DNA of 28,000 nt from Gemmatimonadota bacterium (lineage in GTDB: Bacteria > Latescibacterota > UBA2968 > UBA8231). The DNA is taken from the NCBI GenBank assembly GCA_002712305.1, contig PATE01000001.1, positions 1 through 28,000 of the forward strand, read 5' to 3'. The stretch's first letter is position 1. Every line of letters starts with the position of its first letter. The notes under the pieces were generated by a model. That model saw only the letters and a program-made list of their open reading frames with translations, was not told the origin of the DNA and did not search any database. Positions 12,958-21,192 of the stretch are shown here, piece after piece. The position numbers and the translations under genes were made by a program.

Positions 12958-13716
12958 ATGGCCTCCAGCGCCGACGACACGCAAGCCGCCTCTGAGGTGG
13001 CACCCGCCACAGCACCTGCAAACAGGGCGGGTGGATTCCAGGAGTACAGCACCTCCATTCTCGTCGCCGTTGGGTTGGCCCTGCTGATCCGCAGCACCAT
13101 CGTGCAGGCGTTCTACATTCCATCCGGTTCGATGGAGGACACGCTCTACATCGGTGACTATCTGCTGGCCAACAAGTTCGTCTACGGTGCACCCATCGAA
13201 GTGCCCCTCGTCGATGCCCCGCTCATGCGATTGCCGGCGTTACGCGATCCACAGCCAGGCGACATCGTCATCTTTCGATCGTTGGAGGAGGTAGGTCGTG
13301 ACCTGATCAAGCGCTGCGTCGCGGTGGGCGGCCAGACGGTCCAGATTCGCGACAAGAAGCTCTATGTCGATGGCGTGGCCATCGATGATGCACCGGATGG
13401 AAAATATGTAGATCCCGTGATCTATCCGGCACGGTCCCGTGTGCGTGACAATTATGGTCCCCTCACGATACCAGAAGGTCACTTCTTCATGATGGGGGAC
13501 AATCGCGACAGAAGTCGCGATAGTCGGTATTTCGGCCCTGTGCCTCGCGAGAAGATCAAGGGGAAGGCCATGATCATCTACTGGTCCTCTACTCTCGTGT
13601 CAGGGCCCCTGCATCGACTACCTCAGATGCTGGCCGATGCCGGCAATTTCGCCTGGAACCTACCCTCACTGCCTTTTCGTACTCGCTATTCCCGCCTGGG
13701 GACGGTGATTCACTGA
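12958..13716 (+). CDS. lepB: Signal peptidase I
   Basis: A 252-residue membrane-anchored serine protease that removes signal peptides from exported proteins. After a polar N-terminus, one membrane segment spans roughly residues 31-50 (STSILVAVGLALLIRSTIVQ). The catalytic Ser58 is in YIPSGSMEDTL and the general-base Lys118 in DLIKRCVAVGGQ. The late signature MMGDNRDRSRDSRYFGPV is intact. ATG 12958 is supported by AAGGGA nine bases upstream; the frame is open back to 12790, but that part does not look coding. Only 6 bases separate its stop from the proteasome ATPase start, and no terminator lies between, so it is probably the first gene of the proteasome operon. That linkage is not the usual actinobacterial one. 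Confidence 0.95.
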   Translation: MASSADDTQAASEVAPATAPANRAGGFQEYSTSILVAVGLALLIRSTIVQAFYIPSGSMEDTLYIGDYLLANKFVYGAPIEVPLVDAPLMRLPALRDPQPGDIVIFRSLEEVGRDLIKRCVAVGGQTVQIRDKKLYVDGVAIDDAPDGKYVDPVIYPARSRVRDNYGPLTIPEGHFFMMGDNRDRSRDSRYFGPVPREKIKGKAMIIYWSSTLVSGPLHRLPQMLADAGNFAWNLPSLPFRTRYSRLGTVIH

Positions 13717-13722
13717 CAGCCG

Positions 13723-15474
13723 ATGAGTGATCGAGAGTTTTTCGAGTCCGGTGACGCCGAGCAGCGACGGCGCGACGCCGAAGATCCCGGGCGCGCCGGG
13801 ATGGGCTACGATTCCGATCCCGGTCAGGTCGATGACGAACCTCTTGCTCTGGTAGACCAGATCCTGATGACGGTACCCGAGCGGGATCCGTCACGTCCGC
13901 TGCTGTATCAATTGCGGCGACTGCTTCTCGAGCGTGAAATCACATTCCAGGAGGCGCGGCGTGCTCTGGTCGAACTCGAGGGTGCTCTGGAGAAAGTGAC
14001 AGCCCCTGCCAATCGCGTGGGCATCTTCCTCGGATCGCCAAAAGACGGAATTGCCAACGTGTGGGTGGGCGGTTCGGAATACTACGCCAACATCGACTCC
14101 CGTCTGGATCCGAGCGATCTCGATGTGGGGGCTCGCATTCTGATCAACGAAGCCTATGCGGTGGTCGGAACGCTGGGTTATCCCCCGGGAGGCCCCGTTG
14201 TTCGCATCGCGGATCTGCTCGACGAAGGCCGTCTGCGCATCGGCCAGGAACATGGATCCAGCGATACGGTGCTTGAGCGGTCGGCGTCGCTGGAGGATGT
14301 AGATCTCAAGGTGGGCGACGAGGTGCGCGCAGATCCGGCGATGAAGGTGGCCATCGAGCGACTGACCTCCAGCGAAAGCAAGGAGTACTTCCTCGAAGAC
14401 ATTCCGCCCCTGCCCTGGACAAAAATCGGCGGCCAGGAAGAGGCGATTCAGGCCATTCGCGACACGATTGAGTTGCCGGCCCTGCATCCGGAACTCTTCG
14501 AGAAATTCCAGTACTCCACACCCAAGGGATTTCTGCTCTACGGACCGCCGGGGTGTGGCAAGACCCTGATCGGCAAGGCGACAGCGTTCAGCCTCGTGCA
14601 GCACCTGCGTGAAGAAGAAGGCCTCGAGGTGAAGGAATACTTCATGCATATCAAGGGGCCGGAGATCCTCAACATGTGGCTTGGTGAGACCGAGCGTATG
14701 GTCCGCGAGATCTTCAGTCAGGCGCGCCGCAAACGCAGCGAAGGGTATCTCCCCTTTATCTTTATCGACGAAGCCGAGTCGATCCTCGGTACGCGCCGCT
14801 CGATGCGCTCCCATCACATCGCCAACACTGTGGTCCCCATGTTCTGCACGGAGATGGATGGCATTGAATCTCTCCAGGATGTGGTGATCATTCTCGCCTC
14901 GAATCGTCACGACCTGATCGATCCGGCGATCCTGCGACCGGGTCGAATCGATCGCAAGATCAAGGTCTCCCGTCCTGACATGGACTCGGCCAAGCAGATC
15001 CTGGGTATCTATCTCACCGATGATCTGCCCATCGAAGCAGAGGCGATCACCGAACATGGCAGTGAGGCTGCCGCACGCGATGTCTTCATTGAGCAGACGA
15101 CAGTTGCCCTCTTCGCACGAACGGAAGAGACCAAATTCCTTGAAGTCTCTCTGCGCAGTGGTCGAACCGAGAGCCTTCACTTTGGCGATCTGGCCAGCGG
15201 TGCGCTCATCGACAACATCGTGCAGCGCGCCAAAGAGGCAGCGATCAAACGCGCCATTGCCGATGGGCAGGTCGAGGCGGCGGGGCTGTGTCTGGAAGAC
15301 CTTCTCGGCGCTGTTCGCAGTGAGTACCGCGAGAACGAGGTCTTTCCGCCTTCCGACAGTGTCGCCGACTGGCTCACGCTGCTCGACTATGACCCCGAGA
15401 ACGTCGTGCGTGTCGCTCCCGTGACCGCCTCCGACGAACGGGAGCCGCCGGTCAGCACCGGGACCGTCATTTGA
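13723..15474 (+). CDS. mpa: Proteasome-activating AAA ATPase (Mpa/ARC)
   Basis: A 583-residue hexameric ring ATPase that recognises Pup-tagged proteins, unfolds them and feeds them to the 20S proteasome. Order: a disordered acidic N-terminus (1-40), a coiled coil (about 56-92, LYQLRRLLLEREITFQEARR) that in Mycobacterium binds Pup, tandem OB domains (about 93-235), and an AAA domain. The AAA domain has Walker A GPPGCGKT (274-281), pore loop NMWLGETER and Walker B FIFIDEAES (345-353, D349 and E350). The sensor/arginine-finger region reads ILRPGRIDRK. Odd point: the C-terminus ends STGTVI, without the GQYL tail (an HbYX equivalent) that docks actinobacterial Mpa on the proteasome. The start is ATG 13723, 6 bases after lepB, with no clear ribosome site. 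The stop overlaps dop. Confidence 0.96.
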   Translation: MSDREFFESGDAEQRRRDAEDPGRAGMGYDSDPGQVDDEPLALVDQILMTVPERDPSRPLLYQLRRLLLEREITFQEARRALVELEGALEKVTAPANRVGIFLGSPKDGIANVWVGGSEYYANIDSRLDPSDLDVGARILINEAYAVVGTLGYPPGGPVVRIADLLDEGRLRIGQEHGSSDTVLERSASLEDVDLKVGDEVRADPAMKVAIERLTSSESKEYFLEDIPPLPWTKIGGQEEAIQAIRDTIELPALHPELFEKFQYSTPKGFLLYGPPGCGKTLIGKATAFSLVQHLREEEGLEVKEYFMHIKGPEILNMWLGETERMVREIFSQARRKRSEGYLPFIFIDEAESILGTRRSMRSHHIANTVVPMFCTEMDGIESLQDVVIILASNRHDLIDPAILRPGRIDRKIKVSRPDMDSAKQILGIYLTDDLPIEAEAITEHGSEAAARDVFIEQTTVALFARTEETKFLEVSLRSGRTESLHFGDLASGALIDNIVQRAKEAAIKRAIADGQVEAAGLCLEDLLGAVRSEYRENEVFPPSDSVADWLTLLDYDPENVVRVAPVTASDEREPPVSTGTVI

Positions 15475-17057
15475 GCCCTGATACGCCGGCCGAGAAGGTC
15501 AGGACATCGACGGGACAGGTCTCGCGGGTGTTCGGTCTGGAGACCGAGTTTGGTATTCAGGTAGACGATTCCACCTCTTCCCTCGACGTGGTGGTGGAGT
15601 CGATGGAGTTGATCCGCTGCTTTCTGCAGCGCGACTTCGTGGCTCGTTGGGACTATCGCCTCGAGAATGCGCGACGCGACATGCGTGGCTTCGAGGTGGA
15701 CGAACTTCTCAACGACACCGACGAGACGGTCCATCTCCAGAAGGATCGCGCACGCAAAATTCCGCTCAGTGAGCTGAAGAGTGATCTCATCATTCCCAAT
15801 GGTGCGCGCCTCTATAACGACCATACCCATCCCGAATACTCCACCCCCGAGTGTCTGAGTCTGCGCGATCTGGTTGCATCTGATCGGGCCGGTGAACGCA
15901 TCCTGCTGCATTGCGCACAGAAGCGGACCGAGCAGCGGTCGGATGGCACCGTGCGCCTCTACAAGAACAACACGGACTTCGATGGCCATTCGTATGGCTG
16001 CCATGAGAACTACCTGTTGCCGCGTCAGATGCCCTTCGACGACGTGATCCAGGCGCTACTGCCCTTCGTCGTGACCCGTCAGATCTTCGCCGGGGCGGGC
16101 AAGGTCGGCGTCGAAGCGGATCGTAAAGCAGACCAGGCGGTCTTCCAACTCGCCCAGCGTTCCGACTTCTTCGAGGTCATCGCCAGCGTCGACACAATGA
16201 CCCGGCGTCCGCTGGTCAATACACGCGACGAGCCCCACGCCGATCCGACGTTGTATCGACGGCTGCATATCATCATTGGCGACGCCAACATGTGTGAATG
16301 GGCGACGGCACTGAAGGTGGGGACCATGCGACTCATCCTTCAGATGCTTGAAGCCGGGCAACTCCCATCCATGCCATTGGCCGATCCCATCGGAGCCGTC
16401 AAGTCGATCTCACGCGATTCTTCTCGACGCTGGGAATGCGAATTGGAGGATGGCACTCCGTCGACAGCCCTTGAGATTCAGCAGCGCTACCTCGACCACG
16501 CCCGATCGTTGGCCGCCGGTCGCGACGAGGAGACGGACTGGGTCCTTACACAGTGGCAGGTCGCCCTCGAGGCTCTGGCGACAGACGCAGAGCAACTGGT
16601 TGGACGCTGTGACTGGGTCACGAAGAAGTGGCTCCTCGATGCCTTCGCCGAGGCAGAGGATCTCGACTGGGCCAAGGAAGAGGACCGTGCCTGGCTGCAG
16701 AGCCAGGATCTGGAGTATCACAACATCGACCCCCACGAGGGACTCTTCCTGCTGCTGGAAGCGTCCGGCGACACGGTGGAACGGATCACCGACGACGCCC
16801 ATGTGGAGAGATCGATGGTTCAGCCGCCCGCTGATACGAGAGCCTGGTTTCGTGGAGAGGCGTTGGCTCGGTTCTCTGATCAGATTCGCTCGCTGAACTG
16901 GGATTCCATCGAATTCGAAACCGCAGATGGCCGAGTGGCTGTCATCGATCTGAAAGGTTGTGTCGATGGAGATACGGCGGCTATCTTCAACGTACAGTTG
17001 GACCGTGCCAATTCCGTCGAGGAATTGATCGCCTCCTGCGCCGCGGCGCGGGTGTGA
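15471..17057 (+). CDS. dop: Depupylase Dop (Pup deamidase homologue)
   Basis: A 528-residue glutamine-synthetase-fold enzyme of the Pup ligase/depupylase family. I assign Dop rather than PafA for three reasons. It has the Dop-specific insertion after the first strands (RWDYRLENARRDMRGFEVDE and the following loop). It ends with a Dop-like RGEALARFSDQIRSLNWDSI. It also holds the position between mpa and pup, as dop does in actinobacteria. The metal-binding Glu are in GLETEFG (E24, E26), and the catalytic Asp117 is in LYNDHTHPEYST. Further conserved blocks are LYKNNTDFDGHSYGCHENYL, INTRDEP-like VNTRDEPHAD, and HIIIGDANM. The start is TTG 15471, overlapping the mpa stop by four bases. Since Pup here ends in Glu, its role should be isopeptide cleavage (Pup removal and recycling), not Gln deamidation. 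Confidence 0.93.
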   Translation: MSPDTPAEKVRTSTGQVSRVFGLETEFGIQVDDSTSSLDVVVESMELIRCFLQRDFVARWDYRLENARRDMRGFEVDELLNDTDETVHLQKDRARKIPLSELKSDLIIPNGARLYNDHTHPEYSTPECLSLRDLVASDRAGERILLHCAQKRTEQRSDGTVRLYKNNTDFDGHSYGCHENYLLPRQMPFDDVIQALLPFVVTRQIFAGAGKVGVEADRKADQAVFQLAQRSDFFEVIASVDTMTRRPLVNTRDEPHADPTLYRRLHIIIGDANMCEWATALKVGTMRLILQMLEAGQLPSMPLADPIGAVKSISRDSSRRWECELEDGTPSTALEIQQRYLDHARSLAAGRDEETDWVLTQWQVALEALATDAEQLVGRCDWVTKKWLLDAFAEAEDLDWAKEEDRAWLQSQDLEYHNIDPHEGLFLLLEASGDTVERITDDAHVERSMVQPPADTRAWFRGEALARFSDQIRSLNWDSIEFETADGRVAVIDLKGCVDGDTAAIFNVQLDRANSVEELIASCAAARV

Positions 17058-17081
17058 GAGCAGACGCGAAAGGAGACGCAC

Positions 17082-17276
17082 ATGGGCCCTGAAACGAGTA
17101 TGAGAGATCGCGCGCCCCGTCCGACGAAGCCATTGGGCGACGGAGATGGCGGCGGCGACGAAGAGGGACCGCGACGACCAAAGGTCGAGCGGCCCAACAC
17201 CGACGATGTGTTGCGGCGCATGCGCAAGGTCGATCCCAATCAGGCACGCCGATATCGTCAGCGGACCGGCGAGTGA
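17082..17276 (+). CDS. pup: Prokaryotic ubiquitin-like protein Pup (UBact-type)
   Basis: A 64-residue small modifier that PafA attaches to substrate lysines as a degradation tag. The N-terminal half is disordered, rich in Gly, Asp, Pro and Arg (PLGDGDGGGDEEGPRRP). The C-terminal half (NTDDVLRRMRKVDPNQARRY) is helix-forming and strikingly basic, whereas the Mycobacterium Pup helix is acidic. It ends RQRTGE: the penultimate Gly is conserved and the last residue is already Glu, the form needed for ligation. Actinobacterial Pup commonly ends in Gln. ATG 17082 has AGGAG (17071-17075) at a 6-base spacing, the best ribosome site in the operon, which suits a protein needed in excess. It lies between dop and prcB (24- and 3-base gaps). 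Identity rests on size, C-terminus and position, since overall similarity is low. Confidence 0.94.
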   Translation: MGPETSMRDRAPRPTKPLGDGDGGGDEEGPRRPKVERPNTDDVLRRMRKVDPNQARRYRQRTGE

Positions 17277-17279
17277 GCC

Positions 17280-18113
17280 TTGAGCAGCGGAGGTGACTGG
17301 CGGACTACACCCGCTGCGGCATTGACCGATGGCAGTGACTTTCTCCATCTGCTGAAGGAGAATGGCCACAGTGCGCCGTCGACGACGTCCCAACACGCGG
17401 GCACGATCGATACCCCCACAGAGGGGACGACGATTCTTGCGATCCGATACCGTGAGGGTGTGCTGGTCGCCGGAGATCGACGAGCGACAGCCGGCAATGT
17501 CATCGTCTACGATCGAGCCGCGAAGGTGCTGTCCGTCGACGACCGCTCCGTAATGGCTCTGTCCGGATCCCCCGCCAGTGCGTACGAGATTGCCCGGCTC
17601 CTCGAGATCTCCTTCCAGCATTATCGACGCACGCAACTTCAGGAGTTAAGTCTGGATGGGCGTCTGCGCACGCTCTCCAGACTGCTGCGTGACAATCTGC
17701 CCATGGCTATGCAAGGCATTGGCGCCGTCGTGCCGATCTATGCCACGTACGAGGACGGCAACCCTCGCGAGGGTACCGAGGCAGGTGGGAAGATCTTCTT
17801 CTACGACGTTCTCGGGGCGACCTTCGAGTCCGTCGATTTCTGCACCACCGGATCAGGATCTCCCATCATTCGAGGCGCCCTCTACTACCAGAATCGTTGG
17901 GAGCAGCCCTTCGTCGAACGCGACGAGGCTCAGGCCCTGCTGCTGGTCCTGAAAATGCTCGAGACGGCGGCCGAGTTCGATACGGCCACCGGCGGTTTCA
18001 GTGCCACAGCGGCGATCTATCCGCAAGTGATGCGAGTGACGCGCGACGGCATTTCGGACATCGATGACGAGACGTTGGCGCAGACCTATCGTGCGGCCAA
18101 CGTCTCAGGATAG
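17280..18113 (+). CDS. prcB: 20S proteasome beta subunit PrcB
   Basis: A 277-residue catalytic subunit with a 49-residue propeptide. The cleavage site is TEG|TTILAIRY, making Thr50 the mature N-terminal nucleophile (Thr1). Asp66 in AGDRRATAGN and Lys82 in DRAAKVL fall at mature positions 17 and 33, exactly the catalytic Asp17 and Lys33 of beta subunits. The TGSGSPIIRG segment carries the active-site Ser region. The propeptide contains GSDFLHLL, comparable to the TDFLRR element of the mycobacterial propeptide. The start is TTG 17280, three bases after the pup stop and without its own ribosome site. A strong site-like GGAGGTGA (17289-17296) lies inside the coding region with no start at a usable distance. 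TTG 17322 is a later alternative. It would form the inner beta rings of the alpha7-beta7-beta7-alpha7 core. Confidence 0.95.
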   Translation: MSSGGDWRTTPAAALTDGSDFLHLLKENGHSAPSTTSQHAGTIDTPTEGTTILAIRYREGVLVAGDRRATAGNVIVYDRAAKVLSVDDRSVMALSGSPASAYEIARLLEISFQHYRRTQLQELSLDGRLRTLSRLLRDNLPMAMQGIGAVVPIYATYEDGNPREGTEAGGKIFFYDVLGATFESVDFCTTGSGSPIIRGALYYQNRWEQPFVERDEAQALLLVLKMLETAAEFDTATGGFSATAAIYPQVMRVTRDGISDIDDETLAQTYRAANVSG

Positions 18114-18121
18114 GTTGCTCG

Positions 18122-18904
18122 ATGCTTGAAGAACCCTATCGCTGGGTCGAGGCGATTCGAAATCGTCGTGAATACCTCGAAGACCAACTCGCCGGCGCCA
18201 GTCCCGTCATCGCCTGCCGCTACGCCGATGGGTTGCTGCTGCTGACGACCACACCTGGGCCACGCAAGATCTTCGAGGCTTACAATCAGATCGCCTTCGC
18301 AGGCGTCGGTCATCCGGCCGACATCGAGAAACTGCGCAAGTCCGTCATCGATATTGCGCACCTCGAGGCGTTCAATCTTTCCGCCCGTGATGTCTCGCTG
18401 CAGCGACTCGTGAACTTCGGCGTCGGTCCCCTGATGAAGGCAGCGTTCGACGAGATCTTCCGTTCTCCCTTCATCGCTCGGGTGATGGTGGCCGAACTCG
18501 ATCCGACACAGGAAAGGGAAACCTTCTACACAGTCGATGCGGATGGAAGCTTCACAGGCGCCGATTCAGTGGCGGTGATCGCCGGTACACCGGAGGTGGC
18601 AGACGCCATTCGCGCCCATCTGTCTCAGGACACAGCAGACCAGCCCCTCAAACAGGCCCTTCGTTCCTGTGTCAGCGCCTGGGGCGTCGGGCGTCTGCGC
18701 GGCGAGGCGGCCGCCGAAGAACTGGATGAACCGACCTCTGCTCAGATCGCGGAGGCGATCACCAGCGCCCTGGAATCGGTTCACCTGGAGGCGGCCGTCC
18801 TGGACCGTACCCTGCCCACGAAGACGAAGTTCCGTCTTCTCGACGAGCCGACTCTGGCAGCAGCGGCAGATGCGGCGACAGACGTCTCAGGCAGTGGCTC
18901 ATGA
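18122..18904 (+). CDS. prcA: 20S proteasome alpha subunit PrcA
   Basis: A 260-residue non-catalytic subunit forming the outer, gating rings of the 20S core. The N-terminus LEEPYRWVEAIRNRREYLED matches the H0 helix region of bacterial alpha subunits, followed by SPVIACRYADGLLLLTTTPG and KIFEAYNQIAFAGVGHPADI, the usual first sandwich strands. The N-terminal Thr nucleophile and the catalytic Lys are absent, as expected for alpha. The C-terminus is Ala/Ser/Asp-rich and probably disordered. ATG 18122 lies 8 bases after prcB with AGGA 11 bases upstream. Alpha-ring pockets receive the ATPase C-terminal tail in actinobacteria, which makes the missing GQYL on the partner ATPase relevant. A 59-base gap separates it from pafA. 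Confidence 0.94.
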   Translation: MLEEPYRWVEAIRNRREYLEDQLAGASPVIACRYADGLLLLTTTPGPRKIFEAYNQIAFAGVGHPADIEKLRKSVIDIAHLEAFNLSARDVSLQRLVNFGVGPLMKAAFDEIFRSPFIARVMVAELDPTQERETFYTVDADGSFTGADSVAVIAGTPEVADAIRAHLSQDTADQPLKQALRSCVSAWGVGRLRGEAAAEELDEPTSAQIAEAITSALESVHLEAAVLDRTLPTKTKFRLLDEPTLAAAADAATDVSGSGS

Positions 18905-18963
18905 GACGTGCCACACCTCCCTCCGTCGCTACGACACCGGGGCGTTAGTCCCGCAGCATACCT

Positions 18964-20427
18964 ATGCGCAACCGTATCTACGGTCTCGAGGTCGAGTTTG
19001 GCTGCATGCCGCCGGACACCGATCCCTTCCTGAGCCCAGACTTTATCTCTGCCAAGACGAAGGATTGCGTCTTCTATCGCGAGGGCTTGGGTATCGTGGA
19101 CATCCACTATCGTGGACGCGATGAACCACCGGGCAATGGCGGGTTCCTCTTCAATGGCGGCCGATTCTACATCGACATGGGCCACGTCGAATACGCCACT
19201 CCCGAGTGCCGAGGCCTTTTCGATCTGGTCGCCTCTGACAGAGCGGGGGAAGTGATCGTGCAACGTGCCCTAGACCAACTGGGACTGGCGTCGGAGGGCG
19301 GGTTCTTCAAGAACAACATCGATCACTACACGGGTGCCACCTTCGGTTGTCATGAGAACTATCTGGTACGCCGCGATGTGCCGTTCTCACAGGTTCTGCT
19401 GCCGGCCATCCTGCCCTTCTTCGTCTCCCGCCAGATCTACGCCGGTGCCGGTCGCGTGGGTTGTCATACGGACATCTTCGAATACGGAGGGACCGAAGAA
19501 GGAGAGGTGACCTACCAGATCTCGCAGCGGGCAGATCACATTGTCACCGAGATCTATCAGTGGATCCAGTTCTCCCGGGCCATCATCAACACGCGCGATG
19601 AACCCCTGGCCGACTGGGGGTTGTACCGGCGGCTTCACCTGCTGGTGGGTGACTCTAACATGTCCGAGTACGCCACGGCCCTGAAAGTGGGCACCACAGC
19701 GCTCATGCTTGAGTTGCTGGAAGAGCGGATCATTCCAGAGGTGAAACTCCTCGACCCCGTGCAGGCGATTCGCGATATCTCTCGAGATCTCGACTACAAG
19801 TGGGTCGTGCAGCTGGAAGACGGATCCTTCACCACGGCTCTGGAAATCCAGCGTCAGTATCTACAACTGGCCGAGCAGTACTTACGTGGCAAGGACGAAG
19901 AAGGCGACTGGGTTCTGGACGAGTGGCGCTTCGTACTCGATGGGCTGACGCACGATCCCATGTCCCTGATGGATCGTCTCGACTGGGTCACCAAGAAGTG
20001 GCTTCTAGAGGCCTTCATCGCCGATGAGGGTTTGGAGTGGAACGATCCATGGCTGCAGTCTCTGGATCTGGAGTATCATAACATGAATCCAGAGAAGGGC
20101 CTGTATTTCGATCTGCGAGACCGCGGTCTGCTTCGACGTCTTGTCGACGACGAACAGGTGAATTCGGCGATCGTCAATCCGCCCCAGGATACTCGCGCTA
20201 AGGCACGATCAGAGGTGATGCGATCCCTGACAGGGCAAAAGGCACGGTATGTCATCGACTGGGATTCGATCTACGTCGAGGACGAGAAATACCTGAATCT
20301 GGACGATCCCTTCCTCACCTACGAAGGCGAGGCGAAAGCCTTTATCGAAGAGGTCGAGAGGCCCGACGATGTCGGCACATTCGGGGCCGAAAAAGAGCCG
20401 AAAGATGGACCCGAAAAATCTTCTTGA
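18964..20427 (+). CDS. pafA: Pup-protein ligase PafA
   Basis: A 487-residue ATP-dependent ligase that phosphorylates the C-terminal Glu of Pup and joins it to a substrate lysine. It shares the glutamine-synthetase-like fold with Dop but lacks the Dop loop. It opens MRNRIYGLEVEFG, aligning with PafA and keeping Glu9. The catalytic base Asp71 is in FYIDMGHVEYATPEC. Other conserved blocks are FFKNNIDHYTGATFGCHENY, INTRDEPLADWGLYRRLHLL and VGDSNMSEYATALKVGT. The C-terminal domain ends YVIDWDSIYVED and LDDPFLTYEGEAKAFIEEVE, as in PafA, then a charged tail. It is about 35 residues longer than mycobacterial PafA. ATG 18964 lacks a clear ribosome site. This is the last recognisable Pup-proteasome gene. 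Confidence 0.94.
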   Translation: MRNRIYGLEVEFGCMPPDTDPFLSPDFISAKTKDCVFYREGLGIVDIHYRGRDEPPGNGGFLFNGGRFYIDMGHVEYATPECRGLFDLVASDRAGEVIVQRALDQLGLASEGGFFKNNIDHYTGATFGCHENYLVRRDVPFSQVLLPAILPFFVSRQIYAGAGRVGCHTDIFEYGGTEEGEVTYQISQRADHIVTEIYQWIQFSRAIINTRDEPLADWGLYRRLHLLVGDSNMSEYATALKVGTTALMLELLEERIIPEVKLLDPVQAIRDISRDLDYKWVVQLEDGSFTTALEIQRQYLQLAEQYLRGKDEEGDWVLDEWRFVLDGLTHDPMSLMDRLDWVTKKWLLEAFIADEGLEWNDPWLQSLDLEYHNMNPEKGLYFDLRDRGLLRRLVDDEQVNSAIVNPPQDTRAKARSEVMRSLTGQKARYVIDWDSIYVEDEKYLNLDDPFLTYEGEAKAFIEEVERPDDVGTFGAEKEPKDGPEKSS

Positions 20428-20505: not shown

Positions 20506-21192
20506 ATGGAGATCCAAGCCACCGGGAGGGTGATCGACGGCAGCGCGCTGGCGCGCGGTAAGGACCGTCCACTCGATCGAGTCTCTGAAGACGCGGTCGC
20601 TCCCGATCCAGATCGCGCCATCGAAACGGCGCGGCGTACGGTCATCAACCGTGCCGCTGCACGCAGTCAGGCGAACCGTGTCAAAGACGGCCAGAGTCTG
20701 AGTGCGCTGAAGGCTACCGGTGGGCCTCCTGCCGGGGCTCTGTCCACCAGCAGTTTGACGGCAACCTCCGATAACGATCGCTCTCGTACCTCGCTCTTTG
20801 ACCTGCCCAGTTCGGGTGGTGCCGTGATCGATCGCATGCGGGGTCAGGTTCGCCCTTCCAGTCCTCTGAATGGGCTTTTGGGTGGCAGCAGTGACGGTCT
20901 CTCGTCATCCAGCGCGCTGAACCGCGGATCGACGGGTGGGCTGCTTGGCGACGATGACGGGCCCGGTCTGCTAAGTGGCTTCGTCGGTGTAGACAACAGC
21001 AATCCCCTCGGAGGTCTGAGTCGAGGGCCCATGTCCCTGTCTTCCGCCCAGGAGCTGACGAGTGGTCTTCGCTCGAATCTCAGCCGCATCAGCAACAGCA
21101 GTCGTTCTCTGCTCCAGGTCAGCAATCCACTGCGCACGAGTGGTGGGTTCGGCCTGCAGCTACCTACCTCGAGCCTCAACCTCCTCGGCTGA
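20506..21192 (+). CDS. Unknown Ser/Gly/Leu-rich low-complexity protein
   Basis: A 228-residue protein I do not recognise. Residues 1-70 are charged, with a basic helix-prone stretch (AIETARRTVINRAAARSQAN). Residues 70-228 are low complexity, dominated by Ser, Gly, Leu and Asn with repeated short themes such as LNGLLGGSSDGLSSSS, STGGLLGDDDG and SNPLGGLSRG. There is no signal peptide, membrane segment or Cys, and only about three Lys. Third codon positions are mostly G or C, which supports real coding. ATG 20506 follows AGAGTAGG at close spacing. It starts 78 bases after pafA and ends 11 bases before the M6 protease start, so it may be cotranscribed with either. It is probably largely disordered. 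Confidence 0.7.
   Translation: MEIQATGRVIDGSALARGKDRPLDRVSEDAVAPDPDRAIETARRTVINRAAARSQANRVKDGQSLSALKATGGPPAGALSTSSLTATSDNDRSRTSLFDLPSSGGAVIDRMRGQVRPSSPLNGLLGGSSDGLSSSSALNRGSTGGLLGDDDGPGLLSGFVGVDNSNPLGGLSRGPMSLSSAQELTSGLRSNLSRISNSSRSLLQVSNPLRTSGGFGLQLPTSSLNLLG

Follow-up and report, generated by a model that had tools for sequence, protein, structure and literature searches.

A complete UBact-type modification and proteasome operon, very probably native to a class of Latescibacterota

In reviews, the proteasome of bacteria is still treated as an essentially actinobacterial trait that was gained by transfer, and an operon of proteasome genes in a genome that appears not to be actinobacterial raises two questions, namely which system it encodes and how it came to be there. 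Such an operon lies in the window analysed here, the whole stretch of 28,000 nucleotides at the start of contig PATE01000001.1. It very probably represents a UBact-type (Pup-like) system, complete with modification enzymes and proteasome, that is native to this Latescibacterota class. This reading is based on the genes observed, their family assignments and catalytic residues, conservation across the class, C-terminal motifs and positions in trees.

The genes mpa, dop, the modifier gene, prcB, prcA and pafA are located on one strand (+) at 13723-20427 of the window, with lepB just upstream. In agreement with the preliminary description, seven reading frames occupy 12958-20427, all running in the + direction and separated from lepB to pafA by gaps of 6, -4, 24, 3, 8 and 59 bases. 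Each of the seven proteins is named by Pfam or NCBIfam models, as signal peptidase I, a proteasome ATPase, two Pup_ligase-family enzymes, UBact and two proteasome subunits:

12958..13716, + strand, lepB, signal peptidase I (TIGR02227 152.7 bits, cut-off 47)
13723..15474, + strand, mpa/ARC proteasomal AAA ATPase with C-terminus -TVI (TIGR03689 461 bits, cut-off 504.75; PF17758, PF16450 and PF00004; Mtb Mpa 7px9, E 7e-101)
15471..17057, + strand, dop, deconjugase/deamidase with a TTG start (PF03136 523 bits; TIGR03688 441, cut-off 492.3; PDB 5lrt/4b0r, E 1e-119; Dop clade in trees)
17082..17276, + strand, ubact, 64-residue modifier ending -RTGE (NF033388 79.5 bits, cut-off 35; PF20513 75.8, cut-off 27.8)
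17280..18113, + strand, prcB, proteasome beta subunit with a 49-residue propeptide (PF00227 80.1; TIGR03690 169.9, cut-off 191.9; Rhodococcus beta subunit, E 2e-35)
18122..18904, + strand, prcA, proteasome alpha subunit (PF00227 30.9, cut-off 22.4; TIGR03691 75.5, cut-off 139; Mtb PrcA, E 3e-13)
18964..20427, + strand, pafA, ligase without the Dop loop (PF03136 464.6 bits; PafA clade in paralogue trees)

Mpa, Dop, PafA, PrcB and PrcA score below the NCBIfam equivalog cut-offs, indicating homologues distant from the sequences used to set those models. Comparison of the neighbourhood with relatives showed that lepB adjoins mpa in the window's own family only, and the core system therefore consists of six genes. 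Thus lepB, previously counted as part of the operon, does sit just upstream of mpa but falls outside the conserved system; it is a lineage-specific neighbour that is probably co-transcribed with mpa. The operon as a whole is presumably co-transcribed. Downstream of pafA, an open reading frame and an M6-like secreted protein are kept in most members of the window's family; in the window, the segment at 20506-21192 between pafA and the M6-like protein encodes a low-complexity protein of 228 residues, for which no family was named.

The catalytic residues are intact, as had been proposed. PrcB retains Thr50 (equivalent to Thr1), Asp66 (Asp17) and Lys82 (Lys33) behind its 49-residue propeptide, and this triad is present in 57/57 aligned rows. 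Likewise retained are Glu9, Glu11 and Asp71 of PafA, Glu24, Glu26 and Asp117 of Dop, and the Walker A (GPPGCGKT at 274) and Walker B (FIDEAES at 347) motifs of Mpa, each checked residue of the four proteins being invariant in 46-87 aligned homologues. The last gene was not cleanly separated by the NCBIfam models, with 364.1 bits for PafA versus 362.5 bits for Dop, both below cut-off, and PDB Dop chains score slightly above PafA chains with its product. In a joint tree of PafA and Dop, in which the two paralogues root each other, the product of 18964-20427 groups with PafA and that of 15471-17057 with Dop. Moreover, the Glu-x-Glu motif and the catalytic Asp are spaced further apart in the window Dop by a stretch (the Dop-loop region) that has no counterpart in PafA. 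Judged by the paralogue tree and the missing Dop-loop stretch, 18964-20427 is assigned to PafA.

The modifier matches both curated UBact models far above cut-off, and the Pup model PF05639 has no match in the whole genome, with a Corynebacterium control genome positive. By these matches it is classified as UBact, a kind already known, which is the type that the preliminary description had suggested. Its predicted structure is of low confidence in the first half and has two C-terminal helices, at residues 40-50 and 52-62, rather than a beta-grasp fold; Pup likewise possesses helices instead of a beta-grasp fold. By contrast, the two modifiers differ in charge: UBact is basic, with a positive net charge in every sequence examined and +4 in the window, whereas Pup is acidic, at -13 in the Nonomuraea Pup that served as the actinobacterial comparison. 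No opposite-charge switch columns were found in the PafA and Dop alignments; among the UBact type, PafA and Dop lean towards more acidic sequences, a tendency confounded by overall composition, and the charge of the Mpa coiled coil showed no clear difference.

The last residue of UBact is Glu in the window's genus, and the other sampled members of its family have Gln. At least six changes between Glu and Gln are required on the PafA tree, and it is therefore probable that the requirement for deamidation has shifted repeatedly among UBact relatives; the window UBact, ending in -RTGE, would need no deamidation. Two additional UBact genes were encountered in relatives. One, at L045:4335-4523 (genome G042, contig 146), ends in TGE and is followed after about 40 bases by a sigma-70-family factor gene; it has no ligase or proteasome genes nearby and occurs in one genome only, on a contig that could be a contaminant. 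The other, at L040:6901-7086 (genome G025), is a tandem second copy with one extra G near its end, which converts QRTGE-stop into QRDGGVN-stop; it probably reflects either decay of the duplicate or an error in sequencing.

In an RpoB tree, the window's genome falls within the operon-bearing class and together with the Latescibacterota classes that have no operon. NCBI taxonomy assigns Latescibacterota to the FCB group, which fits the type IX secretion (T9SS)-type tail encoded downstream (TIGR04183, 27 bits, cut-off 23). The host is thus supported as Candidatus Latescibacterota and non-actinobacterial, in line with the Gram-negative candidate phylum and the type IX-like tail of the preliminary description. 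Within the window's class, Pup_ligase was found in 47/47 genomes and UBact in 45/47, compared to 0/17 for either in the other Latescibacterota classes; 75 of the 84 Poribacteria genomes have UBact. The idea that the system is unusual for its lineage is contradicted by this distribution, the system being present across the entire class and in most Poribacteria. The order mpa-dop-ubact-prcB-prcA-pafA is common to the whole class, Poribacteria, some Verrucomicrobiota and Nitrospinota/Nitrospirota records; in other Verrucomicrobiota, pafA is separate or precedes ubact-prcB-prcA. Nonomuraea shares the six-gene order, with insertions, bearing out the resemblance to actinobacteria noted earlier. Our literature search found no paper on the UBact system in Latescibacterota or Poribacteria.

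One Verrucomicrobiota row in the first RpoB tree, and hence in its two clade tests, was wrongly framed (branch length 10); for the in-class comparison the tree was built anew with that row left out. For 13 class members, the RpoB tree and a five-gene tree of the system have 8 of 10 internal branches in common, the conflicting branches having 55-91% support, which suggests that inheritance within the class has been essentially vertical. A search for PafA in plasmid and phage collections gave no link to mobile elements, yielding two actinobacterial matches in the plasmid set, one of them evidently chromosomal, and in the phage set a single actinobacterial contig that had been misfiled. The Nonomuraea record NZ_LT559118.1 (11.85 Mb), deposited as a plasmid, is evidently the chromosome; MT835496.1, filed as a phage, carries actinobacterial-type mpa, dop and pafA among housekeeping genes and looks like a bacterial contig.

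The strongest alternative, which we rate a little below an even chance, concerns the base of the class: the operon may have entered the class ancestor from another UBact phylum, such as Poribacteria, instead of being inherited from the ancestor of the phylum. The other Latescibacterota classes are without the operon, yet loss in their often small, incomplete genomes would also explain this absence. Poribacteria are nearest to the class in PafA (92/78), whereas Dop weakly prefers Verrucomicrobiota neighbours (74/85). On the RpoB tree that includes the misframed row, a clade of the class and Poribacteria excluding other Latescibacterota is rejected (p 3e-35), but one of Latescibacterota plus Poribacteria is not (p 0.236). 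Of the choice between transfer and retention posed by the preliminary description, the trees favour vertical retention within the class, with transfer between phyla at its base a possible earlier step.

The papers searched contained no UBact biochemistry, and we infer every biochemical step of the window's system. Using ATP, PafA would activate the C-terminal Glu of UBact and join it to substrate lysines; the window UBact is already Glu-ended, and in relatives Dop would deamidate the Gln form. Hexamers of Mpa would then bind UBact and thread the protein that carries it, once unfolded, into a PrcA7-PrcB7-PrcB7-PrcA7 core, on which Mpa would dock through two aliphatic C-terminal residues in place of GQYL, and Dop would take UBact off for reuse.

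In mycobacterial Mpa, a C-terminal GQYL is needed for opening of the core particle, in place of the archaeal and eukaryotic hydrophobic-Tyr-X motif (PMC8142254). The window Mpa ends in -TVI and has no GQYL, which is present at the end of Nonomuraea and Tsukamurella Mpa. Among UBact-type Mpa sequences, 46/47 end in two V/I residues (28 VI, 7 VV, 6 II and 5 IV), and none of the 47 has Tyr second from the end. The missing motif might indicate conjugation without degradation, with tags regulating the proteins that bear them and the core particle working alone or with a different ATPase. We consider this improbable, given that five phyla retain the aliphatic pair, preceded by a variable linker, that mpa remains in the same operon, and that the pocket lysine of PrcA, Lys49 (Mtb Lys52), is invariant in 56/56 aligned rows. 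PrcA is divergent in sequence, and its AlphaFold model matches the Mtb proteasome with moderate confidence (pLDDT 69, TM about 0.4-0.5). New in this analysis are the two-aliphatic terminus of UBact-type Mpa versus GQYL, with the PrcA pocket lysine invariant, and the basic UBact versus the acidic Pup. How ATPases open bacterial proteasomes could be tested directly and cheaply on the conserved V-I terminus.

According to a proposal in an earlier study, the pathway originated in Actinobacteria and was then transferred to Nitrospirae and others (PMC7947786). In our trees, with small actinobacterial sampling and long branches (3 PafA, 4 Dop, 3 PrcB and 2 PrcA), UBact-type PafA forms one clade (100/100) and UBact-type Dop another (100/97), both apart from their actinobacterial counterparts. 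The PrcB clade (98/100) agrees with them, and the PrcA tree gives no resolved placement. Grouping of actinobacterial with Nitrospirota/Nitrospinota sequences was rejected for both PafA (p 6e-6) and Dop (p 0.006). The branch separating PafA from Dop has a support of 97/88, or 96/93 without the longest rows, which favours a PafA/Dop duplication before the UBact/actinobacterial split, though not significantly, as a tree with all actinobacterial rows together is not rejected (p 0.195). The published scenario is thus not supported here, and an origin on the actinobacterial stem is possible with the 2-4 actinobacterial sequences per gene; the scenario is testable with wider sampling.

A fairly recent transfer of the operon from an actinobacterium into the window's genome, for which the shared gene order and the published origin could speak, is not supported and appears very unlikely: the operon is universal in the class, with near-congruence to the RpoB tree, the UBact-type clades stand apart, and the genome has no Pup-model match. 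Consistently, none of the gene trees proposed in the preliminary description and run here (PafA, Dop and PrcB) nests the operon in a recent actinobacterial clade. Contamination is next to negligible, since, although the window is contig 22 of a fragmented 4.77-Mb assembly (146 contigs, 2.36% contamination), the operon, lepB and mostly the same downstream genes recur in genomes of the same genus and family, single-contig ones included.

The near-universal presence of a native UBact system in this class and in Poribacteria, with trees placing it outside actinobacteria, points to an old and stable Gram-negative branch. We regard as evenly balanced the broader proposal that the UBact type is an ancient sister branch of Pup, kept vertically in whole Gram-negative classes, with modifier recognition of opposite charge and an ATPase that docks by a C-terminal aliphatic pair instead of HbYX/GQYL. 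What makes the locus valuable is how strongly it is retained across the class, how it stands apart from actinobacteria, and an ATPase terminus still to be explained.

The same genome also encodes an Anbu-type peptidase (contig 5, 10384-10902; relatives PDB 5nyw and 5lox), which shares the proteasome fold and whose gene sits outside the UBact operon. Compared to the actinobacterial Pup system, the window has homologous PafA, Dop, Mpa, PrcB and PrcA in the same order and a small modifier ending in Gly-(Glu/Gln). It differs in a modifier unmatched by PF05639 and of opposite net charge, in an Mpa that ends in -VI instead of GQYL, and in genes that fall in separate clades from the few actinobacteria sampled. 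By contrast, nothing defining distinguishes it from the UBact conjugation-proteasome system (NF033388/PF20513), which has been described in Nitrospirota and several candidate phyla. Both have the modifier family, the six-gene order, PafA, Dop, Mpa and PrcBA, and the C-terminal -TGE/-TGQ, and in the window the curated modifier match is accompanied by linked pafA, dop, mpa, prcB and prcA with intact catalytic residues in PafA, Dop, PrcB and Mpa. Altogether, the window holds a Latescibacterota member with a Glu terminus, where most of its own family has Gln, and is an ordinary, complete representative of a known but hardly studied kind.
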